A stretch of DNA of 64,000 bases from a virus. Within the stretch, counting starts at the first letter, position 1. Each line of letters starts with the position of its first letter. The stretch lies in the IMG/VR virus record IMGVR_UViG_3300005264_000010, positions 1 to 64,000 of that record. One strand, 5' to 3'. Position numbers and translations under genes: made by a program. Shown here one piece after another: positions 2,894-45,248 of this stretch. The notes beneath the pieces are model-generated. The model did not search any database. It saw nothing but the letters and a program-made list of their open reading frames with translations, and had not been told where the DNA came from.

Positions 2894-3157
2894 ATGAAAA
2901 CAATTAGAGAATTTATAAATGAAAGCGATTCTGTTGTATTAGTAGGAATTAATTCAATGAATCCATCTCATAGTAAGCAAGTTAAACAAATACAATCAGT
3001 ATTAAAATCATTTCCTGATACTGTATATGATAATGTGATTAAGAAGAGTAGTGGATCTTTTGTAAGTATAACTGTTAAAGATGAAATTAAAGCTAATCTT
3101 ATACAATATCTAAGAAATGTTAAAAATAAAGTAGATGGATGGGATATTTTATCATAA
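2894..3157 (+). CDS. Capsid-targeted internal protein
   Basis: 87 residues starting MKTIREFINES, the clearest copy of the capsid-targeting leader, with predicted cleavage after I-N-E. The ATG at 2894 is preferred over one at 2873 because AAGGA lies upstream and the leader then sits at the N-terminus as in T4 internal proteins. The mature part contains VLVGINSMNPSHSKQ and resembles no family I recognise. It lies between protease and scaffold genes, where core proteins are made. Confidence 0.7.
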   Translation: MKTIREFINESDSVVLVGINSMNPSHSKQVKQIQSVLKSFPDTVYDNVIKKSSGSFVSITVKDEIKANLIQYLRNVKNKVDGWDILS

Positions 3158-3216: not shown

Positions 3217-3993
3217 ATGATTAAAACAGAATTGAAGGAATTACTTCAAAAACATGACTCTGAAATATTTACAGATGAACTTGTAGAAAGTGTAACAGAT
3301 GTGTTGCAAACTACAATTGACACTGAAGTAAATGAAAGAGTTAGAGTAATTCAAGATGAAAAAGAACAAGAAGTATCTGATTTAAAAGAATCAATAGAAG
3401 AAAAATCAATACAATTTGAGGATGTGAATGAAGAAAAGATGGAAAAAATAGTAAGCGCCCTTTCAAAAATGATGGATGAAACTATTGAAGAATTATTTGA
3501 ATCAAACAAAGTGGATTATGAAAATGTAGCTATTGTGAATGAAGCTATTGAAATTCATAAAACAAATAAACAATTAGCTGAAAAGTATCATATCTCAGTT
3601 GATGGTCTTGAAGAAGATATGTCATCTAAGAAAAAATTATCAGAAGCTAAAGAAATGTATAATGAGTTATATCAAGCACACGAAGAATTGAATGATAAAA
3701 TTGATACTTACTCACAAATACAGATTGTTAATAAAGTTACTGAAGGAATGACATCTATTCAAAAAGATGACTTACTATCTTTAACTAGTTCTTTAAATGA
3801 AAGTGATATTACATCTTTCGAAGAGAAAGTTGAAAATATTAAGAAAGTAATTTTAAAGGAAAGTAACGAAAGACCAGTTAGAAGATTAAATGAAACAGAA
3901 GTAGATGATATCAATACATTAAATGAAGATGTAGATGAAGAAACTGATGTAAGTAAGAAAGTAAAAACATATAATATGTTTGGACCTAAATAA
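3217..3993 (+). CDS. 22: Prohead core scaffold (T4 gp22-like)
   Basis: 258 residues, acidic, almost entirely helical and coiled-coil with no globular core, as expected of the T4 assembly core protein gp22 (269). It lies directly before the major capsid gene, as in T4. Several Leu-Asn-Glu sites (SSLNESD, RRLNETE, NTLNEDV) fit the gp21 cleavage rule, so it should be degraded to small peptides during maturation. A late-like box CATAAATA is at 3153-3160 and a GGAG site precedes the ATG. Confidence 0.8.
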   Translation: MIKTELKELLQKHDSEIFTDELVESVTDVLQTTIDTEVNERVRVIQDEKEQEVSDLKESIEEKSIQFEDVNEEKMEKIVSALSKMMDETIEELFESNKVDYENVAIVNEAIEIHKTNKQLAEKYHISVDGLEEDMSSKKKLSEAKEMYNELYQAHEELNDKIDTYSQIQIVNKVTEGMTSIQKDDLLSLTSSLNESDITSFEEKVENIKKVILKESNERPVRRLNETEVDDINTLNEDVDEETDVSKKVKTYNMFGPK

Positions 3994-4040: not shown

Positions 4041-4349
4041 ATGATTACAAATGCAAACACAAACACAGATAAAGTTTTAGAGTATAAAACTGAATCTATG
4101 AGATTGTTAGAGGCTCATACAGAAATAATTGAATCTCAACATTACTCAAAATTAGATGAAAAAATGAAAGCACCTACTGCTTTTTTAATTGAAAATACTG
4201 AAACTTGGTTAAATGAAGATGCTAACTTACATGGTGATTTACAGTATTACAAAGAAATGTTAGTACCTATAGTTATATTAAAGTTGCTGCCGGTGGTGGT
4301 AATGATCTTGCAAAGATTGTTTTTAAAGAGCAAACTACAGGTGGAATGA
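4041..4349 (+). CDS. 23: Major capsid protein gp23-like, N-terminal part (frame disrupted)
   Basis: The first about 76 residues read as a normal T4-type capsid N-terminus: an acidic helical propeptide, LNEDANLHGDLQYYKEMLVP, then the frame runs into unrelated hydrophobic sequence and stops. WLNE|D is a plausible gp21 maturation site. After MLVPIV one expects the conserved arginine-rich VRR segment, but the sequence jumps to material belonging further inside the capsid protein in another frame. The break coincides with TATAGTTA at 4268-4275. This is explained best by loss of a segment, in the genome or in assembly. Confidence 0.75.
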   Translation: MITNANTNTDKVLEYKTESMRLLEAHTEIIESQHYSKLDEKMKAPTAFLIENTETWLNEDANLHGDLQYYKEMLVPIVILKLLPVVVMILQRLFLKSKLQVE

Positions 4350-5245
4350 AACTATTAGTTAAGATTGAAGATGGTGAAGCTTTACCTGCAACTGGAACTG
4401 TATGGGTTACTGGACCAAATGCTGATTTAGAAATGACTAATATTTGGAATAACGAATTAGGTAGAAGTGTTATTTTATCTACTTATGGTGGTCCGATGTC
4501 GACATCTGAAGGTGAATTACTAAATGACTGGCAAACAGTTAAATTATCACTTGAAGCTGTTAATATTACTGCTATTTCTCACAAGTTAGCTTTTGAACTT
4601 TCACAAGAAACAATTACTGATCTTGCAAGAAGAACTGGCGATGATGCAAAGAAGAGATTAGTTGGTGCAATTAACTGGCAATTAGCAATGACTGTTAATA
4701 GAAAGTTATTTAATTTGATTTCAAGCTCAGCTGAAACTGGAAGTGAGTGGTTATATTCTGGAGCTGATGGTAGAATGGAATCTGAGAAGCTATTAGGTCT
4801 TAGAAGAAAGATTAAATGGGAACAAAATAGAATTGGTGTTAAGACACAAAAAGGTAGAGCAAATTATGGTATCGTTACACCTGCTGTTGGTACTGTATTA
4901 GAAATGCAGCCTGGATTCGCTAAAAATATTGCTGATGAAGGTGGAGATCAAGCTGGTATTATTAAGATTGGATCTTTAGATGGAATTACTTATTACCAAA
5001 CTACTATGGATGGTGAAGCTGGTGATTTTGTTATACTTGGTTATAAAGGTGCTGAAGAGCATGAGAGTGGAGTTTTTTATTGTCCTATGGTACCATTGTT
5101 AGTTAGTAAAGCTAATGACTTTGATAATCCAGAAAGACAGAAAGTTGCTTTCTCTCAAAGAGCTGGTTATACTCCAAATCCTTATGGAGCGGAAAGATAC
5201 ATCACTTACTTCGATGTGACTCTCACTGGATCAAGTATTAAGTAG
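4268..5245 (+). CDS. 23: Major capsid protein gp23-like, C-terminal part
   Basis: About 320 residues in a different frame continue the capsid protein: YSYIKVAAGGGNDLAK, then the HK97-fold body, then RQKVAFSQRAGYTPNPYGAERY near the C-terminus, characteristic of T4-type gp23. Together with the upstream part it would be about 400 residues plus whatever is missing; T4 gp23 is 521 before processing. There is no ribosome site for the fragment itself. The ATG at 4346 is internal. It needs the upstream frame to be whole. Confidence 0.8.
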   Translation, partial: YSYIKVAAGGGNDLAKIVFKEQTTGGMKLLVKIEDGEALPATGTVWVTGPNADLEMTNIWNNELGRSVILSTYGGPMSTSEGELLNDWQTVKLSLEAVNITAISHKLAFELSQETITDLARRTGDDAKKRLVGAINWQLAMTVNRKLFNLISSSAETGSEWLYSGADGRMESEKLLGLRRKIKWEQNRIGVKTQKGRANYGIVTPAVGTVLEMQPGFAKNIADEGGDQAGIIKIGSLDGITYYQTTMDGEAGDFVILGYKGAEEHESGVFYCPMVPLLVSKANDFDNPERQKVAFSQRAGYTPNPYGAERYITYFDVTLTGSSIK

Positions 5246-5460: not shown

Positions 5461-6330
5461 ATGAAAGTAAAACATAATGTAGATTATTTGACTGAAGAAA
5501 AATTAGGATTATTTCTAACTAAACTATATCCAAATAATAATTTTATTCATAATAAGAAAGTTCCTAATAGTAATATATTAAATAGACCAGACTTTAGATG
5601 TGATGAGTTAATGATAATAGTAGAATTTGATGGATATCAGCATTTTACTATAGCTAAAAATATAACTATTGATAGAATGAAGGATGAAGTATATTCTAAA
5701 ATGGGTTATAAAATAATAAGAATACCTTATTTTATACAACTATCAACTACTAACATTAAATATTTCTTTAACTTAGATTATGAATATAATCAAACTTATT
5801 TAAATGGATTTATAGATAGTAAAGCTATACTTCCTGCTGATTTTTGTGAATTAGGAGAAATTCTATTTGAAGATATTTTAGTATATTTACCAACAGATAC
5901 TTTATATGAGATAATGTATTCTTTAACAAATAAATATGAATTTATAATGAATAAGCTTAAAGTAAATAATCATCTCTATATATTTGATTGTATATATAAT
6001 AAGAGATTAGCTAGCTTTCTTTATATAATAAATGAAGATTTCTTATCCTATGTAAGTAAATATTTAATTGATAAAGAAGAATTATTAGTACATATAAATT
6101 TAGAGTTTGGGTATTCATTATTTGTTACTATAAGTATAGAAGATAGTGAAAATGTAGAAGATGTTATTGATGAACTCTATGATATAGAAATAGACGATAT
6201 AAATACTTACGAAATATTTAATCCTATAGAAGATAAAGAAATAGATAAATTCACATTATTTGGTTTATACTCATTTGGTGATATAATTAATATAACCGAT
6301 GATGATATAAAATATTTATTCGATAAGTAA
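5461..6330 (+). CDS. Vsr-like (EDxHD-type) endonuclease, probable homing endonuclease
   Basis: 289 residues. The N-terminal 95 residues carry RPDFRCDELMIIVEFDGYQH and DRMKDEVYSKMGYKIIRIPY, the Vsr-like fold of phage homing endonucleases. E55, D57, H61 and D71/D75 are candidate catalytic residues. The remainder (about 100-289) is acidic, probably helical, and unrecognised; it may be a DNA-targeting or inhibitory domain. Unlike the three zinc-finger endonucleases, it has a sigma70-type promoter and no folded leader. It stands between the capsid gene terminator and the ADP-ribosyltransferase gene. Confidence 0.65.
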   Translation: MKVKHNVDYLTEEKLGLFLTKLYPNNNFIHNKKVPNSNILNRPDFRCDELMIIVEFDGYQHFTIAKNITIDRMKDEVYSKMGYKIIRIPYFIQLSTTNIKYFFNLDYEYNQTYLNGFIDSKAILPADFCELGEILFEDILVYLPTDTLYEIMYSLTNKYEFIMNKLKVNNHLYIFDCIYNKRLASFLYIINEDFLSYVSKYLIDKEELLVHINLEFGYSLFVTISIEDSENVEDVIDELYDIEIDDINTYEIFNPIEDKEIDKFTLFGLYSFGDIINITDDDIKYLFDK

Positions 6331-6384: not shown

Positions 6385-9300
6385 ATGTCTACATTAAAAG
6401 ATTTTCTAAGAGTTAATATCAATGAACATTCATTATTTGATGATAATGATAGTAAAGAAGTAACAGAGTTCCTAAATGATAAAAAACTAATACTAGATAC
6501 TTTCTATATTAATTTTATTGGTTTTTTATCTTTACTTCAAATGGATCATCACGAGAAAGTAACTCAATATTTCAAAAAAGATAAAAAATTACAAATTAGG
6601 AGTATAACATCTGAAAATAATGATATTAGTTATATACTAAAAATTATTAGTGATAAAGGATATTTTACTACTAGATCAATTACTCAAATAACTAAATTAT
6701 TATTTATGATTAAGAGTGGTAAGATAAAAGATGTTGATGAGAATAAGATAAGAGATATACTACAATTTTTAAAAATTGATCAACATAAACCTAATGCTAA
6801 AATTAAAACTATTGTATCTAAATTTATATCTAGTGAGGAAACAATACTACTAACTTCTCTTAATTTATATAAATATGCTAGGAAGAATAAGATTTCTATT
6901 GAGTTCACAGATATATTTAGAAAAACTGCTAAATTTAAAAATGTAGATCTTGATGCTATAGATCTTGATGATAAGAAAAGTAAGGATGTTGATACTACTA
7001 TAAATATTCCTGATAAAGCTGATGATAGTATTGTTGATGTAGGAGTTACTAAACCAAAAAAGAAACTTAGTAAAAAAGCCCAAATACAAGCAGAAATAGA
7101 TGATGAAGATTTACCTACACTTAATGGTAGTATGACTTATGATACTAAAGAAAGATATCAAATACTTAAAAGTATATTAGGTAAGAGCGATAATTATAGA
7201 AAATCTATAATGAAGTTATATGCACTAAAGAAAGAAGATTTTACTACTGAATATTTTGAAGAGTTCTATAGAGATAGAATTAAATTAACAAAAAGTGATT
7301 TAGATATACTTAATAAAATATATGCTAAGAAGAATTCATATTGGTATATTAAGTATTATATTATTTTCACCAGTAATTCATTTGCTCAAGATAAAGAAGC
7401 CCATGATAAACTATCAACTAAACAATTAGATGTATATAATATGAGTATTAGTTATGAGACAGGTAAATATTATAGAAAAGGATACCAATTTTCTTCAGAT
7501 ATTAGTGTTAATAATGATATTAGAGAAAGAATATATGAGAAACTAAAAAATGAAAATTCTTCAGATTATTATAAGTTTATGACAGATTGGGGTTTATTAC
7601 AGAAATATATAGTTGATAAAATTAATAGTAATTCATCTTGGGATGATGCTATCTTATTTATTAGTATGGGTATGCTGTTGAGTAATTATATTCAATCATA
7701 TGGGTATGCCACTTTAAGTAATGAAGAAGAAAATCTAATAAACTATATATCTGATCATGCACCTCAGTTATTAATAAAAACTTCATATAAAAATAAAATA
7801 AAAGATATCTCAATTTTCACAATAGATGAATTTGTAGATTTCTTATTTGGTAAGGACTATGATCAAAATCAATTGCCTGTGGATATGATTGAAGTAAATA
7901 AAACTAACTATACATGGGATATTATATTTGAAATATATAACGGTAGAGATATAGTTGTTAATAAAATAGTAAAAAAGTATGTGCAAACTTACTATAATAG
8001 TCTTAAAATTAATTCTTTTTTGGAAAAATTTGATTGGAAATTTGATAATGAGTTTTTAAAGGATGGTAATAAAGGAGTAAATCTAGAAAATATAGATATA
8101 ATCTTATCATCTGAAAAATATACTAATGTACTTGACTGTGAGTTATGGATAGATAGATTAAGTGAATCTAATTCTAGAAATAAAATAAATATTTTAAAAG
8201 AATATATTATACAAAAGAAACTTCATCTAATAGTAGATAAATTTAGTAGGGATATGTACTTGAGTAGTTTTATTTATGAATTAGGAGAGATAGAAGTAAA
8301 TAAATACTATAGTAATATTGAGCTATTAGAATTATTTCAAAAATTTGAAGATTTTGGATTATATGAATTAGAAAAATTACTTACACTCCTATTATATACT
8401 GATGATGACGTTATTGATGATAAAGAATGTAATATAATATATAACTGGGATATGGTAAAAGACTCCTACAATAGTAATAATATATTTAATTATGCTGGCT
8501 ATATTACAAACAAAAGTCTAATTTATTATATTAATAAAAAATTAGAAGATAAGATAGATGATGTTGAAAATAATGATTATATTAAGAATCTTTTCTTTCT
8601 TCGATATTTAGTAGATGAAGGTAAATCTGAAAAGGCTTTAGAAATTTTTCACAAATATATAATTACTATTGAAGCTATGTATTATTTGCATGAATTTAAA
8701 TTAGAATTTATTTTTAGTGTTGATATAATAAAAAATGATAAAAAAGTGAGTGATTGGATAGAAAAAGGTATTCGTGATTGGATATCAAGTGGGAGTATAT
8801 ACTCAATAAATCATGATGTATTAATTAAAGAAAAATTTGATATTATTAAAGAAGAATTCCTAAAAATTATTAATCCTGATTCTAGTGAACTAACTATAAG
8901 TATGGATAAATCCGATCTAGATATATTTATTAGTGTAGTAGAAAATAATAAAGAGAAATTCTCTGATGATGAGCTTAATTTATTATTTTCTAATCCTAGA
9001 ATATTTAAAGAAATTCGCAATAATGCAACTTTTGAAAATTTACTGAAAGAAGGTATATCAATAAGGGAAGATATTAAAATCCAGAAAAAAGATTTTGATG
9101 CTATGTTAAAATTTAATAATATTGATATTAATACTAGATTATTAAGAAAAAAGAAGAATGAAAAACCGCTAGATTATCTTGCTAGAAGTTCAAAGGTTAC
9201 TGATATTAAATTACCAGATGTACAAATTGATGAGGTTGAAGAAACTGAAGCTGAAAGGATGACACAATCATATAAACTATATGATAAATATCATTCTCAT

Positions 9301-10080
9301 GGTAGACATGGTAATACAACATTTAAAATATTAAAAACATATAATGTCAATTTACCCACTGAAGAGTTTGACCAATTTAGATTAGATAATCCAGATAGTG
9401 TAATGAAACCGGGATTTCATGGAACTGGAGATATTGGAGCCGCTTTCATATTAAGAACTGGATTTGCTGTATTACCATCAAGTGATAGATCAGTAACTGG
9501 TAGAATGTTAGGTGACGGTATTTATTTCTCAGATGTAATTGATAAAGTACAACAATATGTTGGTGATAACGGAATGACTAGGAATTGGGGTTCTAAAGGA
9601 TATGTATTTGAAATGGATGTTAATTTAGGTGTTGAGGGAGAAGATTATGAACAACAGAGTCAGGGTTTAGTATCCGCAGAGTGGGTTGTGAAAAATGCAA
9701 ATAAACAACTAAAAATATTAAAAGCATATAGAGTTGAATTAGTTTCACCAAGCTATATAGAACAATTTAAACCTAATATAAATGAATCATTAGAAACAGC
9801 TAAACAATTATTGGAGAAGAAAATGAAAACCTCATACTACAAATATACATTTATTGATGGTAAAATACCAATTAGTAAAAATAAAAGTATAGATTTTGAA
9901 GATGTAAAATTATTAGATAAAAGAGTTAGGATTGACTATAGTCAAAATGGTCCTGTATTAGTTATACCTATAGAGTTTGATATGGATAAGTTTTTTAATA
10001 TTAAATATACTTCAGAGTTTATGAAAATGAAGAGTGAATTTCAGCAATATTTAAGACTAATAGATGGAAAAATAAAATAA
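6385..10080 (+). CDS. Giant capsid-targeted protein with C-terminal PARP-type ADP-ribosyltransferase domain
   Basis: 1231 residues. The start MSTLKDFLRVNINEHS fits the gp21-cleaved capsid-targeting leader (cut after I-N-E at residue 14). Residues about 15-960 are long, helical and acidic with no domain I recognise; a basic low-complexity linker lies near 225-235. The C-terminal domain (about 980-1125) holds FHGTGDIGAAFILRTGF (H1012), GDGIYFSD (Y1047) and AEWVVKNANKQLKILKAYRV (E1099). This is the complete His-Tyr-Glu triad of PARP-type transferases, which move ADP-ribose from NAD+ onto targets. T4 Alt is also packaged but has an Arg-Ser-Glu-type fold and is about half the size. A second cleavage-like NINES lies after the domain. 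Late promoter upstream, terminator downstream. Target and chain-forming ability are unknown. Confidence 0.8.
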   Translation: MSTLKDFLRVNINEHSLFDDNDSKEVTEFLNDKKLILDTFYINFIGFLSLLQMDHHEKVTQYFKKDKKLQIRSITSENNDISYILKIISDKGYFTTRSITQITKLLFMIKSGKIKDVDENKIRDILQFLKIDQHKPNAKIKTIVSKFISSEETILLTSLNLYKYARKNKISIEFTDIFRKTAKFKNVDLDAIDLDDKKSKDVDTTINIPDKADDSIVDVGVTKPKKKLSKKAQIQAEIDDEDLPTLNGSMTYDTKERYQILKSILGKSDNYRKSIMKLYALKKEDFTTEYFEEFYRDRIKLTKSDLDILNKIYAKKNSYWYIKYYIIFTSNSFAQDKEAHDKLSTKQLDVYNMSISYETGKYYRKGYQFSSDISVNNDIRERIYEKLKNENSSDYYKFMTDWGLLQKYIVDKINSNSSWDDAILFISMGMLLSNYIQSYGYATLSNEEENLINYISDHAPQLLIKTSYKNKIKDISIFTIDEFVDFLFGKDYDQNQLPVDMIEVNKTNYTWDIIFEIYNGRDIVVNKIVKKYVQTYYNSLKINSFLEKFDWKFDNEFLKDGNKGVNLENIDIILSSEKYTNVLDCELWIDRLSESNSRNKINILKEYIIQKKLHLIVDKFSRDMYLSSFIYELGEIEVNKYYSNIELLELFQKFEDFGLYELEKLLTLLLYTDDDVIDDKECNIIYNWDMVKDSYNSNNIFNYAGYITNKSLIYYINKKLEDKIDDVENNDYIKNLFFLRYLVDEGKSEKALEIFHKYIITIEAMYYLHEFKLEFIFSVDIIKNDKKVSDWIEKGIRDWISSGSIYSINHDVLIKEKFDIIKEEFLKIINPDSSELTISMDKSDLDIFISVVENNKEKFSDDELNLLFSNPRIFKEIRNNATFENLLKEGISIREDIKIQKKDFDAMLKFNNIDINTRLLRKKKNEKPLDYLARSSKVTDIKLPDVQIDEVEETEAERMTQSYKLYDKYHSHGRHGNTTFKILKTYNVNLPTEEFDQFRLDNPDSVMKPGFHGTGDIGAAFILRTGFAVLPSSDRSVTGRMLGDGIYFSDVIDKVQQYVGDNGMTRNWGSKGYVFEMDVNLGVEGEDYEQQSQGLVSAEWVVKNANKQLKILKAYRVELVSPSYIEQFKPNINESLETAKQLLEKKMKTSYYKYTFIDGKIPISKNKSIDFEDVKLLDKRVRIDYSQNGPVLVIPIEFDMDKFFNIKYTSEFMKMKSEFQQYLRLIDGKIK

Positions 10081-10212: not shown

Positions 10213-10686
10213 ATGAAAAATATTAGAGAATTTATAACTGAAAGTGGAATGACTGAAAAGAAAATGATAGATACTATCATTAAAGAGATTAAACCAGTTT
10301 ATGATAAATGGAGAGATGAATATTTTGATTATCTAATAGCTAGAAAAGAATTAAAAAGAAATGATTATAAAGAGTATGAAAGAACTTGGGTAAGAAGTGA
10401 GCATAATATTTTATTATCAAATGATAAAGGTATGAAAGAAAAATTAGTAATAATTTTTGATAAAAAATTAGTTGATGTTAGTAAAGCAATTCATAAGAAG
10501 ATTGTGAATGCTAAGATAGGTAAAGTTTTTAAAATAGAAAGAGTTAAAGATAGTCATAATGATTTAGATTTTTATATAAATGATGCTTTTAAATTATCAA
10601 TTAGAACAATAGTTGCTAATGGATATGTTCAAGTAACTCATTATAGAGTTATAACTACAATCACAAAAATAAATATGGAGAAGTAA
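10213..10686 (+). CDS. Capsid-targeted protein under an early promoter
   Basis: 157 residues beginning MKNIREFITESG, with predicted gp21 cleavage after I-T-E. The mature part is basic, mixed helix and strand, and not recognised. Although the leader implies packaging, the gene follows a sigma70-type promoter and a strong GGAG site and opens an operon running to about 14.8 kb. It may therefore act both on entry and after early expression. Function unknown. Confidence 0.7.
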   Translation: MKNIREFITESGMTEKKMIDTIIKEIKPVYDKWRDEYFDYLIARKELKRNDYKEYERTWVRSEHNILLSNDKGMKEKLVIIFDKKLVDVSKAIHKKIVNAKIGKVFKIERVKDSHNDLDFYINDAFKLSIRTIVANGYVQVTHYRVITTITKINMEK

Positions 10687-20841: not shown

Positions 20842-20976
20842 ATGAGTTGGATATTGAAGGTTGAAAAGTATTTTGATTTGTATGAGATATTTGCATTTAT
20901 GAGCGAAGAAGAAGCAATAGCATTCCAAGATGATTGGAATTTAAAAGGTGAAATTTATTATAAGGAAGAAGAATAA
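20842..20976 (+). CDS. Small acidic protein, 44 residues
   Basis: Starts MSWILKVEKYF after AGGAG and ends TAATG, coupled to the next gene. No family recognised. Confidence 0.5.
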   Translation: MSWILKVEKYFDLYEIFAFMSEEEAIAFQDDWNLKGEIYYKEEE

Positions 20977-21431
20977 TGAAAACTATTAGAGAATTTCTAT
21001 CAGATCAACTATCTAAAACAGATTTATTTGAAATGGCTTTTGATAAGAAAACTATTGAGAGGAAAATTGATGGACTAGCTAGACCAATATTATTACATCT
21101 AATAAAGATATTAAAATGGGACGATAAGCAAAACTATAATAAACATATTAAAGATATAAACTCATGGTTAAGAGAAATAGATAGATTAGAATTAAAACCA
21201 AAAAAGAAAAAACTAAAATCAGATATTTATTATTTTTGGCTATATGATGGACCTATTGGTAATAGCATAAGAATTATTAATAGTTATATTGATGGTGATT
21301 TAGAAGATTATCATAAATTAAATATAAAGAGAAGTAATAAAGAAGTTATGATTAGTATAGAAAAAATTATTAAGCAAATATCTATTGATATATCAAATAA
21401 TAGATTAGAGAAAATACAAAACTATCTATAA
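20976..21431 (+). CDS. Capsid-targeted protein (long leader variant)
   Basis: 151 residues starting MKTIREFLSDQLSKTDLFEMA. The first seven residues match the capsid-targeting leader; the nearest gp21-type site is L-F-E at about residue 19, so the leader may be longer than in its relatives. The rest is basic and helical (LKPKKKKLK near the middle), consistent with packing against DNA. It follows an early promoter. Function unknown. Confidence 0.6.
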   Translation: MKTIREFLSDQLSKTDLFEMAFDKKTIERKIDGLARPILLHLIKILKWDDKQNYNKHIKDINSWLREIDRLELKPKKKKLKSDIYYFWLYDGPIGNSIRIINSYIDGDLEDYHKLNIKRSNKEVMISIEKIIKQISIDISNNRLEKIQNYL

Positions 21432-24948: not shown

Positions 24949-25140
24949 ATGAATGAAAATATTATTAAGTATGAATTGAAAAGTTATAGAATAGCTACTG
25001 TTGTTGGCGGTTTAATAGAACAGCCAGAAATACGATATGAAGATTATGATACTATAGAAGCCACAAATGAGAAAGAAGCACTAGAAATATATAATAAAAA
25101 ATGGAAATGCAATTATTTTTATGGGAAAATTTTAAAATGA
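24949..25140 (+). CDS. Small protein, 63 residues
   Basis: First gene of the NAD+ operon. ATNEKEALEIYNKKWKCN near the C-terminus is a pattern seen in small phage proteins of unknown role. Its stop overlaps the next start (ATGA). Confidence 0.55.
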   Translation: MNENIIKYELKSYRIATVVGGLIEQPEIRYEDYDTIEATNEKEALEIYNKKWKCNYFYGKILK

Positions 25141-25517
25141 AAGAAGAAACTATTATAACAGCAGATTATTTAAGAGCTAATCCAAATCATATATTTGTGT
25201 TTGGTGATAATCTATTAAGATATGGTACTGGTGGTGCGGCAAAATTAAGACATCATAAAAATACTTATGGTTTTATTACTAAGAAAGCGCCAACATATAG
25301 AGATGAGGACTTCTATACACCAGAAGAATATCTACCAGTGTTTAAAAAAGAGTATGATAAACTATGTGATGAAATAGAAGCTAATCCAGATAAGCTATAT
25401 TTAATTTCAAGGATTGGCGGTAGGATTGCTAATAAACATCTAATTTTTGAGTGTATAATAGAGCCATATATCTTTGATTTAGAAGATAGATATGATAATA
25501 TTAAAATGTTATTTTAA
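25137..25517 (+). CDS. Macro-like phage protein (FVFGDNLLR family)
   Basis: About 126 residues. IFVFGDNLLRYGTGGAAKLR, YGFITKKAPTYRDEDFY and LYLISRIGGRIANKH are hallmarks of a widespread phage family that resembles the macro-domain layout (an N-terminal Gly-Asn-Asp-rich loop and Gly-Gly-Ala-Ala). If truly macro-like it could bind or clear ADP-ribose, which would fit its place beside NAD+-building genes; that function is inference. Start taken at 25137 from the ATGA overlap; an earlier ATG at 25101 lies inside the preceding gene. Confidence 0.6.
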   Translation: MKEETIITADYLRANPNHIFVFGDNLLRYGTGGAAKLRHHKNTYGFITKKAPTYRDEDFYTPEEYLPVFKKEYDKLCDEIEANPDKLYLISRIGGRIANKHLIFECIIEPYIFDLEDRYDNIKMLF

Positions 25518-25531
25518 AAGGAGAAATAAAA

Positions 25532-26362
25532 ATGAAGTATATTTACTTAGACCAAGTCAACTCACACATTTTCAGTGGTGGGGAAGTTCATGTTAATATT
25601 AGTAATTATCTACCATTAGAAAAAGATGAGTATAAAATAGTAGCTACTATTAAGAGTTCAAATGATTTAATGAAATTACTATTACTAAATGATGCTGTGA
25701 GGAGAGAATTAGATAGTGATTATAGAATACATTTAGATATGAATTATGTTCCTTATGCTAGACAGGATAGAGTTTGCAGTAAAGGTGATGCTTATTCATT
25801 ATCAGTATTTAGTAAAATGATTAATACTTGTAATTTTAAGACTGTTTCTGTATTAGATCCACATAGTGAAGCTGTTGAATTAAATATTGATAGATTAGAA
25901 GTATATGATAATTTTGCTCATGTTAAACATATGTTAAGAAAATATAAAATTAAAGAATTTAATTTGGTTGCACCAGACAAAGGAGCTACTAATAAAATTA
26001 ATAAATTGGCATATTTTTTAGAAGAACTTAGTGATTTTAGAGTTAACAATATTATTCAATTTGACAAAAAAAGAGATATGCAAACAGGTAAAATAATAAG
26101 TTATGATATTCGGGAACAAGATAAATTAAAACCTGATGGAATGATAAATGTAATAGTTGACGATATATGTGATGGTGGAAGAACATTTATGGAAGCAGGA
26201 GTGAAATTAAATTATTTTGGTAGTAAACAAAATATATTATTTGTGACTCATGGAATATTTTCAAAAGGAACTAAAGACTTAATAATATACTTTAATAAAA
26301 TAGCAACAACAAGTTCATTGGGTAGTGATAGAAATATTAAAAATGTAGATATATTATATTAA
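25532..26362 (+). CDS. Prs-like pyrophosphokinase (PRPP synthetase or ADPR-PP synthetase)
   Basis: 276 residues against about 315 for bacterial Prs. NYVPYARQDR (71-80), DPHSEAVEL (109-117) and the phosphoribosyl loop VDDICDGGRTF (209-219) define the Prs fold. Known relatives either make PRPP for Nampt or, in the phage NARP1 pathway, pyrophosphorylate ADP-ribose (Adps). Its partner at 26648 is in the same operon. No NMN adenylyltransferase is seen in the window, which slightly favours the NARP1 reading. Which substrate it uses cannot be read from motifs alone. Confidence 0.8.
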   Translation: MKYIYLDQVNSHIFSGGEVHVNISNYLPLEKDEYKIVATIKSSNDLMKLLLLNDAVRRELDSDYRIHLDMNYVPYARQDRVCSKGDAYSLSVFSKMINTCNFKTVSVLDPHSEAVELNIDRLEVYDNFAHVKHMLRKYKIKEFNLVAPDKGATNKINKLAYFLEELSDFRVNNIIQFDKKRDMQTGKIISYDIREQDKLKPDGMINVIVDDICDGGRTFMEAGVKLNYFGSKQNILFVTHGIFSKGTKDLIIYFNKIATTSSLGSDRNIKNVDILY

Positions 26363-26375
26363 ATATGGAGGAAGT

Positions 26376-26651
26376 ATGAAAAAATATTTATTGACTTTTT
26401 TAATAAGTTTAATTATATTGTCGTGTAATCAACCAAAAGAAGTAAGAAAAGTAAGAGAATATATACTATCTATTGAAAAAGGTTATGAATTAATAAGCGT
26501 TTCTGAGAGTAAATATTTTACAAGTGTGTTGATAAGAAATATTGAAACTAAAGAATATAAGTATAATTCATATTACCTTGTTTGGGGCAAAGATGTTAGA
26601 GAAATAGAATTAAGACAAATAATAAAATTTAAAATGGAGGAAATAAAATGA
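26376..26651 (+). CDS. Small lipoprotein, 91 residues
   Basis: MKKYLLTFLISLIILSCNQ is a signal peptide with lipobox LSC, giving a mature N-terminal cysteine. The mature part is basic and short. It sits between the two NAD+ genes and overlaps the second by ATGA. Possible envelope or superinfection-exclusion role; unproven. Confidence 0.65.
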   Translation: MKKYLLTFLISLIILSCNQPKEVRKVREYILSIEKGYELISVSESKYFTSVLIRNIETKEYKYNSYYLVWGKDVREIELRQIIKFKMEEIK

Positions 26652-28192
26652 GACCAGAAAATAACATTATGGAGTTTATTGATTTTTACAAAGCAGATCA
26701 TAAAAACCAATATCCAAAAGGAACTAATAAGGTTTATTCAAATCTTACACCAAGAAGTAATAGGTATGGAATATCTGATAAAATGGTATTCTTTGGTTTG
26801 CAATATTTTATAATGAAGCACCTCGTTCATAATTGGAATGTTGGTTTTTTTGATAGAAATTTAGAAGATGTCCTTTCGGACTATAAAAGAAGGATGGATA
26901 CTTCACTAGGTAAAGATGCTATAGATGTAAGTCATATTAGAGAATTACATGAACTTGGATATTTACCATTAGAGATTAAAGCATTAAAAGAAGGAACAAG
27001 AGTGCCAATGAGAGTTCCTGCTTTAACAATAAGCAATACTGTCGATAAGTTTTTTTGGTTAACAAATTATCTTGAAAGTTTAATGTCTGCTGAGTTATGG
27101 GGGCCAAGTACCTCTGCTTCAACTGCATTTGAATATAGAAAAGAATTTGAAAGACATGCTAAATTAACTGGATATTCTGATTGGGATTTTACACAATTTC
27201 AAGGTCATGATTTTAGTTTTAGAGGAATGATGGGAGTAGAAGCCGCAATGATGAGTGGTGCTGGTCATTTATTATCATTTACTGGAACTGATACAGTTTC
27301 TAGTTTGAAGTGGTTAGAATATTATTATAAAGCAGATGCTGAGAAAGAGTTAATTGGCACAAGTGTTCCAGCAACTGAACATTCAATTATGTGTATGGGA
27401 ACAATTGATGGAGAAATTGATACATTTAAGAAATTGATCACTGAAACTTATCCAAGTGGTATCGTTTCAATTGTTTCAGATACTTGGGATTATTGGAAAG
27501 TTATAACAGAATTTTTACCTAAACTTAAAGATGAGATCATGAATAGGAAAGGTGGTTTTCCAATAGATAGAGTTGTTATTAGACCAGATAGTGGTAATCC
27601 TGTTGATATTATATGTGGTGATGTTGGACCTTGGAATGTTACTGATTATGAATTTAAACAAAAAAATAATAATTGGGATTGTCATCAGAGAGGAACTTAT
27701 GAAATGTTATGGGAAACTTTTGGTGGAACTATAAATGAGCAAGGATATAAAGTATTAGACTCTCATATAGGATTAATTTATGGAGATAGTATTACTTTTG
27801 AAAGACAAAAAGAAATACTTAAAAGATTAGAAGCTAAAGGTTTTAGTGCAAGTAATTTAGTGTTAGGTATAGGAAGTTATACATACCAATATGTTACAAG
27901 AGATTCTTATGGAACTGCTGTTAAAGCTACTTATGGTGAAGTTGATGGGGTTGGTAGAAATATCTTTAAAGATCCAAAAACTGATGATGGGATGAAGAAA
28001 TCAGCTAAAGGATTATTAGCTGTAATAAAACCTGAAGGTGGTACTGAATTACAACTTGAAGATGAATTATCAATAGAAGAATATCATAATGAGTTTCCTG
28101 ATAACTTATTAGAGTTAGTATGGAAAGATGGTAAATTTTATAGAGAACAAACACTACAAGAAATTAGAGATATTGTTAAAGAAGAATTTTAA
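26648..28192 (+). CDS. Nampt-like transferase (nicotinamide phosphoribosyl- or ADPR-transferase)
   Basis: 514 residues, close to human NAMPT (491). ATEHSIMCMG carries the catalytic histidine (H245) and RPDSGNP the aspartate (D314). Nampt joins nicotinamide to PRPP giving NMN. Its phage relatives called Namat in the NARP1 pathway join nicotinamide to ADPR-pyrophosphate, giving NAD+ directly. Operon partnership with the Prs-like gene fits both. It would rebuild NAD+ after host Sir2/TIR-type defences or use by the phage ADP-ribosyltransferase. Terminator directly downstream. Confidence 0.85.
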   Translation: MRPENNIMEFIDFYKADHKNQYPKGTNKVYSNLTPRSNRYGISDKMVFFGLQYFIMKHLVHNWNVGFFDRNLEDVLSDYKRRMDTSLGKDAIDVSHIRELHELGYLPLEIKALKEGTRVPMRVPALTISNTVDKFFWLTNYLESLMSAELWGPSTSASTAFEYRKEFERHAKLTGYSDWDFTQFQGHDFSFRGMMGVEAAMMSGAGHLLSFTGTDTVSSLKWLEYYYKADAEKELIGTSVPATEHSIMCMGTIDGEIDTFKKLITETYPSGIVSIVSDTWDYWKVITEFLPKLKDEIMNRKGGFPIDRVVIRPDSGNPVDIICGDVGPWNVTDYEFKQKNNNWDCHQRGTYEMLWETFGGTINEQGYKVLDSHIGLIYGDSITFERQKEILKRLEAKGFSASNLVLGIGSYTYQYVTRDSYGTAVKATYGEVDGVGRNIFKDPKTDDGMKKSAKGLLAVIKPEGGTELQLEDELSIEEYHNEFPDNLLELVWKDGKFYREQTLQEIRDIVKEEF

Positions 28193-29095: not shown

Positions 29096-29677
29096 ATGAA
29101 AACTATAAGAGATTTTATAGATAAACCAATAAATGAATCGCCTGCTAATGCTCACCCAGATGTTGATATTATAGTTAATGATAATTTAACTAAAGTTATA
29201 ATAAAAGCATTTAAAAATGATAATGTTTATGAAACTAATAATCCTAATATATATAAATGTGCTGGACATAGTGTGGGATATATGATATATATGATAATTA
29301 AAGACGATAGTGTTATTGGTGCTACATCAATATTTAGTAGTAATCTTAAACATAGCTATAGAGGTAAAACTAAATATATATGTTATCCTAAAATATCTAA
29401 AAAATATAATGATAAAGAAAAAGGTATATTATTCCAATTATATAGACATATTCAATTTAATGAAAATTTATATATTATGGGAGATGGTAAGCAAACTGAT
29501 GATAGTAAACAAGTTTGGTTGCATTGGCTTACTAATGATGTTGATTATATTAAAGATTGGTTTATATATGATACTAAGACTAAAGAAGCTAAAGCATTCA
29601 CTCTTAAAAAATTACATAAATACTGGAGTAATAATCTGAATTTTAGTAGATATAGACCATTAGTAATATTTGAATAG
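29096..29677 (+). CDS. Capsid-targeted protein with GNAT-like features
   Basis: 193 residues starting MKTIRDFIDKPINESP, with predicted gp21 cut after I-N-E at residue 14. The mature part has YMIYMIIKDDSVIGATSIF followed by NLYIMGDGKQTDDSKQVW, an arrangement seen in divergent phage acetyltransferase-like proteins. I cannot confirm an acetyl-CoA loop. Early promoter and own terminator make it a single-gene unit. A packaged modifying enzyme is an attractive but unproven reading. Confidence 0.6.
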   Translation: MKTIRDFIDKPINESPANAHPDVDIIVNDNLTKVIIKAFKNDNVYETNNPNIYKCAGHSVGYMIYMIIKDDSVIGATSIFSSNLKHSYRGKTKYICYPKISKKYNDKEKGILFQLYRHIQFNENLYIMGDGKQTDDSKQVWLHWLTNDVDYIKDWFIYDTKTKEAKAFTLKKLHKYWSNNLNFSRYRPLVIFE

Positions 29678-41131: not shown

Positions 41132-41677
41132 GTGAGTAAAAAATCAATCAAATATTTGAAGTCTATAGAAAATGAAAGGGAATTTAATGATATATTTATT
41201 ATTTCATTTCTTGGTTTATTAGGATTATCTGTAATAAATGCAAATAATAATCTTCTATTACTTAAAATGAAGAAGTATAGAGTTATATTAAATCAACTAA
41301 ATGATGACTCTATGGATATTTATTATATTATACAATCATTATATGATCAAAAGAAAATTAAAATATCATTTGCTTTAGATTTAATAGATGTCCTTCAGAA
41401 GTTTAGACAACCAAATTTTACATTTTCTTTAGTAGAGCAGGAAATTAAAGAATTATTAGAAGATTTACCTCCAATTATTTATACTAAATTATCTGGAGAT
41501 GTTAAGTTATTTTTTAAGGCATATTTACATAGTGAATTGATTGATTGGAATATAACTAAATTAGTGAATAAGTTTTATAGTTTTGCTAATAGAAAGAAAT
41601 ATACTGAAATTGATTTCGTACAACTAGCAAAAAATATGAAACGAATGGAGGTAGAAAGTGAAGATATTCGATCTTAA
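41132..41677 (+). CDS. Late structural protein, 181 residues (unassigned baseplate gene)
   Basis: GTG start, TAGG eight bases upstream. Mostly helical with a hydrophobic stretch near 22-40 and a C-terminal helix ending NMKRMEVESEDIRS. Its 3' end overlaps the gp25-like gene by 20 bases, so it is likely a baseplate or chaperone component. T4 counterpart not identified. Confidence 0.6.
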   Translation: MSKKSIKYLKSIENEREFNDIFIISFLGLLGLSVINANNNLLLLKMKKYRVILNQLNDDSMDIYYIIQSLYDQKKIKISFALDLIDVLQKFRQPNFTFSLVEQEIKELLEDLPPIIYTKLSGDVKLFFKAYLHSELIDWNITKLVNKFYSFANRKKYTEIDFVQLAKNMKRMEVESEDIRS

Positions 41678-44528: not shown

Positions 44529-45248
44529 ATGAATGACTTTGCTTGGAGTAAATTAAAACTACCTGTATATGGTAAAGAAGTAAATATTAAAAATTGGAAC
44601 TATCTTGAAGATGTTGAATTAAATAAGAAAATATCTCAAACAGAAAATTCAGAAGATAAAATTAAAATAATTCTTGAATTTCTAAAAGATCATGTTAAAG
44701 AGAAAAAAGTATTTGATGAACTAACAGATGTGGATATATATAAAATTTTGTTTGTACTTCGCAACAACTCAAAAGGGAATGAGATTAAGTATATGTGGAA
44801 ATGTTTCAATGAAGATTTTAATGGTAAGCAATGTCCAGCTCATAATCAATATCAACACACAGCTTTAGATATTATAAAAGAAGTACAATATAAAGTAAGT
44901 AAAGTTGAAGATAAAAAATTAGATGATAGATATACTATTAAATTCAAAAATATTAGCTTCCTTAATAAATTGAAAATTATAAATAATATAAGCACAACAG
45001 AAGAACTTAAATATCAATTAGTATTAGGTAGTATTGAATCTATTATTAGAGATGATGAATTAATTAATTTTAGTAGTAATAAAGAATTAGATAAGTTCTT
45101 GAAAAATATAGAGCCAAAATATGTTTATAAAATAATTGAAAGTTATAAAGATAATGTTAGTAGTGTTGATATATTAAAGAAAAATGTTTGTAGTAAATGT
45201 GGATCTATAAATGATTTAGTTATAGGTGATTTTAGTTTTTTTTTATAG
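44529..45248 (+). CDS. 26: Baseplate hub assembly protein (T4 gp26-like), short form
   Basis: 239 residues. WSKLKLPVYGKEVNIKNWNY start and two cysteine pairs (WKCFNEDFNGKQCPAHN and VCSKCGSIND) resemble T4-type gp26 hub proteins and tail assembly chaperones. The frame ends SFF-L-stop in a run of nine Ts (45236-45244). A slip of one base there would extend the protein as listed next. AGGAG before the ATG. Confidence 0.65.
   Translation: MNDFAWSKLKLPVYGKEVNIKNWNYLEDVELNKKISQTENSEDKIKIILEFLKDHVKEKKVFDELTDVDIYKILFVLRNNSKGNEIKYMWKCFNEDFNGKQCPAHNQYQHTALDIIKEVQYKVSKVEDKKLDDRYTIKFKNISFLNKLKIINNISTTEELKYQLVLGSIESIIRDDELINFSSNKELDKFLKNIEPKYVYKIIESYKDNVSSVDILKKNVCSKCGSINDLVIGDFSFFL

Follow-up and report, generated by a model that had tools for sequence, protein, structure and literature searches.

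The window, by which we mean the whole 64,000-nucleotide stretch analysed here, belongs to a virus record of 73,784 bases (IMGVR_UViG_3300005264_000010) that lacks end repeats and may therefore be a fragment, so that absences from the record are weak evidence. Genes were also listed, and scanned for leaders, in the remaining 9.8 kb beyond the window. The virus is a bacteriophage related to phage T4. In the window, a giant gene predicted to encode a PARP-type ADP-ribosyltransferase (ART) sits behind gp21-, gp22- and gp23-like genes. The gene and its parts are as follows:

6385-10080, + strand: giant PARP-type ADP-ribosyltransferase gene, 1231 aa, ATG start (phrog_18612; Pfam PARP)
6385-6426, + strand: leader of residues 1-14 (MSTLKDFLRVNINE), with I-N-E at its end as a prohead-protease-like site; it resembles the capsid-targeting peptides of the T4 internal proteins
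6427-6954, + strand: N-terminal helical domain, residues 15-190, conserved across relatives
6955-9306, + strand: residues 191-974, a long and divergent middle region that is mostly helical
9307-9756, + strand: predicted PARP/ART catalytic core, residues about 975-1124
9418-9420, + strand: codon of the catalytic H1012
9523-9525, + strand: codon of the catalytic Y1047
9679-9681, + strand: codon of the catalytic E1099
9778-9816, + strand: linker with candidate prohead-protease sites I-N-E (1132-1134) and L-L-E (1142-1144); the linkers of most relatives scored carry F-x-x-F-[LI]-x-E
9817-10077, + strand: conserved C-terminal module of about 87 aa with an F-x-DG-x-IP motif, a separate neighbouring gene in phage OC

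The open reading frame is as a previous sequence-only reading had described it, and the motifs lie exactly at the residues given there: NINEHS starts at residue 11 (I12-N13-E14), FHGTG at 1011 (H1012), GDGIYF at 1043 (Y1047) and SAEWVV at 1097 (E1099). That reading had also classed the protein as a PARP-type enzyme with a His-Tyr-Glu (H-Y-E) triad, and structure prediction, which it had proposed as a check, agrees. An AF2 model of residues 877-1231, built on 33 aligned sequences, has a mean pLDDT of 82.6 and matches the PARP catalytic fold. When the modelled C-terminal domain was compared with the PDB using Foldseek, 196 matches were obtained at E<=0.001, and the best 50 of these are all PARP1/2/3 catalytic domains (best match PARP1, E=1.4e-9, probability 1.00). 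The TM-scores against PARPs are moderate (0.3-0.5, up to 0.53 by target length), which we attribute to differences in domain arrangement and length. Pfam PARP (PF00644) matches residues 978-1061; the score for the whole ORF is slightly below the cut-off of 26.7 bits (25.3 bits, E=1.2e-5), and that in the whole-record search is above it (27.9 bits). The triad is nearly invariant among 49 aligned family sequences, with the histidine present in 47, the tyrosine in all 49 and the glutamate in 48 of 48, one sequence having a gap. The surroundings of E1099 read SPEWxVFxxxxQLxIxKxY in the family, which we take to resemble the PARP signature around the catalytic glutamate.

The order of the three residues and the H-to-Y spacing (35 residues) are those of PARPs, as claimed before, but the claim does not hold for the Y-to-E distance, which is only 52 residues. 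In human PARP1 this distance is 92 residues. The loop preceding the glutamate is thus much shorter in the phage protein, and polymer formation is not to be assumed despite the presence of the glutamate.

The protein belongs to a known phage family. The phrog_18612 profile matches it in two stretches (E=1.9e-95, 322 bits), the best of which covers residues 900-1225, and tblastn matched 34 records of isolated phages, including Stenotrophomonas Menderavirus, Aeromonas phages Aeh1, phiAS5 and PX29, Pseudomonas putida phage pf16, Xanthomonas phage X1 and Ochrobactrum phage OC. A scan of viral contigs with the single protein as query returned no matches; a profile scan of IMG/VR with an alignment as query succeeded and gave 55 loci. 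Relatives are already annotated as PARP or ADP-ribosyltransferase. Moreover, PARPs were reported in jumbo phages by Iyer et al. 2021 (PMC7824862), and head packaging was proposed for many phage ADP-ribosyltransferases by Iyer et al. 2022, whose survey included the PART family (PMC9503650). The idea of an unprecedented find has therefore to be given up; what is new is the evidence that the sequences offer for packaging, not the kind of protein.

The first part of this evidence is at the extreme N-terminus. The starts of the relatives were anchored on the pattern E-[NHTGA]-x-[LIFVM]-[YF], which 34 distinct contexts fit. In all 34, the position two before the glutamate holds an L, I or V (26, 7 and 1 contexts), and the middle residue of this [LIV]-x-E site takes 12 values. 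Because the anchor itself fixes the glutamate, the informative part is the combination of a fixed hydrophobic residue with a free middle residue; E14 is invariant in two N-terminal alignments. The pattern fits the [L/I]-x-E rule of the T4 gp21 protease. Judged by eye, the leaders of X1 (LQE) and OC (LLE) agree with the site, and the pf16-type relatives, which have a different N-terminus, nevertheless carry their own L-T-E or L-N-E close to it. Exceptions are one relative without a leader (L037) and one with a different start (L050). The leader of the window protein is modelled at low confidence (pLDDT about 38).

The second part lies in the linker that separates the C-terminal module from the ART core. 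The motif F-x-x-F-[LI]-x-E, or a close form of it, is present in 27 of 32 scored family linkers (33 rows, one of which lacks the anchors). In 2000 shuffles, the mean was 0.8 and the maximum 5 linkers, a control that treats the sequences as unrelated though they are kin. Similar peptides open T4 IPIII (MKTYQEFIAE) and IPI (MKTFKEF), as read from the T4 record. The window linker, a degenerate copy, contains I-N-E and L-L-E and lacks the full motif; its residues 1134-1147 have pLDDT values below 50 and are probably flexible.

The C-terminal module is missing from the giant of phage OC, whose immediate upstream neighbour is a gene for this module alone (E=2e-5). When stand-alone copies of the module were searched for with tblastn, only the query records were returned. 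The giant may be a packaged polyprotein from which the prohead protease releases two products, a PARP effector and a C-terminal effector resembling an internal protein, a proposal to which we give slightly less than an even chance. In that case the second targeting-like peptide would be what is left of an internal-protein gene after an in-frame fusion, a fusion to which the OC module, being its own gene next door, points.

Other genes in the window were considered together with these motifs:

1945-2586, + strand: gp21-like prohead protease (phrog_207, head maturation protease, E=3.5e-54)
2894-3157, + strand: 87-aa gene with the internal-protein-like leader MKTIREFINE followed by S (leader pattern)
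3217-3993, + strand: gp22-like scaffold (Pfam T4_CASP, phrog_237)
4041-5245, + strand: gp23-like major capsid protein, in two frames in the assembly (Pfam Gp23, E=7.8e-36 for the second part)
10213-10686, + strand: 157-aa gene directly downstream of the PARP gene, with leader MKNIREFITE followed by S (leader pattern)
20976-21431, + strand: 151-aa gene with leader MKTIREFL (phrog_31822, function unknown)
25532-28192, + strand: NAD+ salvage genes, PRPP-synthetase-like (25532-26362) and NadV/NAMPT (26648-28192) (Pfam)
29096-29677, + strand: 193-aa gene with leader MKTIRDFIDKPINE followed by S (leader pattern)
41132-41677, + strand: stand-alone relative of the N-terminal domain of the PARP protein, upstream of a gp25-like gene

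The genes at 2894, 10213, 20976 and 29096 begin with MK(T/N)IR(E/D)F. Of 86 gene starts, 9 fit a looser form of the leader pattern, versus 2 of 401 internal Met codons; some of the nine are probably due to chance. The frame at 2595-2872, which adjoins the gene at 2894, reads IKTIREFVNEAQYID without a normal start codon; it is perhaps a decayed internal-protein gene or one with an unusual start.

The [L/I]-x-E motifs might be structural or coincidental, the protein being an ordinary cytosolic PARP-like enzyme. Conservation also extends beyond the N-terminal site (N-[ST]-[LF]-Y), so this stretch may be constrained for another reason; [LI]-x-E is a common motif on its own, occurring 19 times in the giant protein, and the relatives are non-independent samples. 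Coincidence would nevertheless have to account for flanks that are fixed around a free middle position at the extreme N-terminus, for a second site within a targeting-like peptide far above the level in shuffled linkers, and for other genes of the window opening with the same kind of leader, and we give it little credence. The sequence-only reading had proposed a packaged protein on the strength of the N-terminal I-N-E; the conservation of that putative protease site and the second candidate site after the ART core strengthen the proposal, and packaging is still something that we infer.

The same reading had spoken of nearly 1000 residues of unknown sequence before the catalytic part, which is true of one portion and not of another. 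Residues about 15-190 form a single conserved helical domain, mostly modelled with pLDDT values of about 80-95. Conservation and model quality are low at residues about 193-876: the columns of the alignment of the N-terminal part average 17% identity, pLDDT values in the middle region are mostly below 50 up to residue 876, and the structure prediction of residues 1-876 is reliable solely at about 14-190. A Foldseek search of the PDB with modelled residues 1-876 gave no match. The gene at 41132-41677 matches a profile of the N-terminal domain made from the relatives only (E=5.6e-8); tblastn of the phage collection revealed no phage relatives of it. Its position suggested gp26, an assignment that was rejected as gp26 is encoded at 44529-45248 and the profile gave no match to T4 gp26.

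The position of the PARP gene differs within the family. At two related loci a gp19 homologue follows the PARP gene, one of them (L054, the other being L058) also having a gp21 homologue. Its neighbours in Menderavirus and X1 are gp32 and dexA, a place away from the head genes that speaks against packaging. The gp23-like gene of the window has a frameshift near 4264 and seems to lack a part that would correspond to the middle of T4 gp23, reflecting either an assembly error or a broken copy. Between it and the PARP gene, positions 5461-6330 contain a DUF559/RAP-type nuclease-like gene, and positions 310-1365 encode a DUF7487 protein with a C2H2 zinc finger and a TnsA-like stretch; both are probably free-standing homing endonucleases. 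A DUF7831 protein (GDNLLRYGTGGAAKLR) is encoded at 25101-25517, beside the NAD+ salvage genes.

Sequence and modelling together give the domain architecture, a predicted PARP fold with its triad, and the conserved [L/I]-x-E motifs. We regard the protein as a real PARP-type enzyme that is most likely packaged and injected like T4 Alt. In full, the reading that we consider probable is that a T4-like phage packages this ADP-ribosyltransferase in its head and injects it, and that the enzyme would act in an Alt-like mode through a PARP-type (H-Y-E) core. The protein would be made during head assembly and would enter the prohead core via its N-terminal leader, perhaps also via the second targeting-like peptide. 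The phage gp21 protease would then cut after E14 and in the linker past the ART core, yielding the mature enzyme and a C-terminal module of roughly 87 residues, and both would exit the head with the DNA. In the host, the enzyme would ADP-ribosylate a host macromolecule from NAD+ early in infection. The gp21-like protease in the window, the leader-bearing genes, the place behind the head genes and the NAD+ salvage genes are counted in favour of this reading. The literature searched contained no virion proteomics for any relative, and a term search of the phage papers on pf16, X1, OC and Ps15 gave no text on mass spectrometry. The argument for packaging is now stronger than before, and we infer cleavage, injection, activity and target along with it.

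The enzyme might instead stay unpackaged and act inside the infected cell, either as a toxin-antitoxin-like ART balanced by an ADP-ribosylglycohydrolase or as a late host-control enzyme like T4 ModA/ModB. In the Aeromonas phages Aeh1 and phiAS5 (loci L003, 6888-11579, and L007, 4901-9495) and in PX29/Ah1-type records, the giant PARP gene is immediately preceded by a glycohydrolase gene, and Iyer et al. 2022 read the Aeromonas-phage ART-ARG pair, probably the Aeh1p142-p141 type of arrangement, as toxin and antitoxin (PMC9503650). We nonetheless consider an unpackaged enzyme unlikely: no glycohydrolase (PF03747) was found in the record of the window, itself possibly a fragment, or in pf16, Ps15, X1 and OC; the N-terminal site is kept in families without the glycohydrolase; and a toxin of 1200-1500 aa would be unusually big for an arrangement of this kind. 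Going by the putative cut sites, the two genes would be better read as an injected enzyme and the eraser that matches it than as toxin and antitoxin.

A packaged enzyme might also act on phage components, such as its own DNA or head and scaffold proteins, or shield the entering DNA from defence, rather than modify host proteins. T4 IPI is an injected anti-restriction protein (PMC3012670), DNA-modifying ART relatives exist (DarT, as cited in PMC9503650), and the C-terminal module could be injected as a protein in its own right. We hold a phage target to be rather improbable, given that no sequence feature indicates a nucleic-acid target and that the closest precedent in function, T4 Alt, has host proteins as its substrates.

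Packaging and injection, our preferred reading, would give the published idea of injected phage ADP-ribosyltransferases a testable sequence basis and extend it to PARP-type enzymes of widespread T4-like phages, with giant PARPs present in the cultured phages pf16, Ps15, Aeh1 and X1. With a PARP inside a phage head, an enzyme clade most familiar from eukaryotes would also be connected with the phage strategy of injecting effectors.

The closest known proteins are the phrog_18612 giants, namely Menderavirus Ps15 ORF165 (the second largest protein of its phage; PMC9025141), Aeh1p141, phiAS5 ORF0265, pf16 gp92, the X1 protein and OC p405. They are homologous to the window protein over the full length or the C-terminal third, are 33-36% identical to it in the C-terminal region, and have the same triad and, in most cases, the same N-terminal site; their gene position differs, and several adjoin an ADP-ribosylglycohydrolase gene. 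The eukaryotic PARP1/2/3 catalytic domain shares the predicted fold, the H-Y-E order and the context of the catalytic glutamate, at about 15% identity in the structural alignment, and none of the other PARP1 domains is seen in the phage protein. The PART/PARP proteins that Iyer et al. treat from phages and viruses (BBA65562.1 and IIV-6 100L) belong to the same ART clade; IIV-6 100L is a structural match of only 181 aa, and the portions of that work used here describe no prohead-protease sites in either protein.

The T4 internal proteins IPI-IPIII have leaders of the MKTYQEFIAE/MKTFKEF type, as do other genes of the window and the PARP linkers internally, but they are small and without known enzyme activity; the first 10 residues of IPIII suffice for head packaging (PMC9026906). 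T4 Alt (phrog_802) is, as the sequence-only reading had noted, an enzyme of a different type, R-S-E and 682 aa long versus H-Y-E here; it has no profile match to the N-terminal domain of the giant, and its family has no match in the record of the window. Aeh1 and phiAS5 carry a normal Alt as well, so the role of the giant is not simply that of Alt. Like the giant, however, Alt is a large ADP-ribosyltransferase with an N-terminal [L/I]-x-E leader (it starts with MELITE), and it is trimmed at both ends by gp21 (PMC9026906) and injected.
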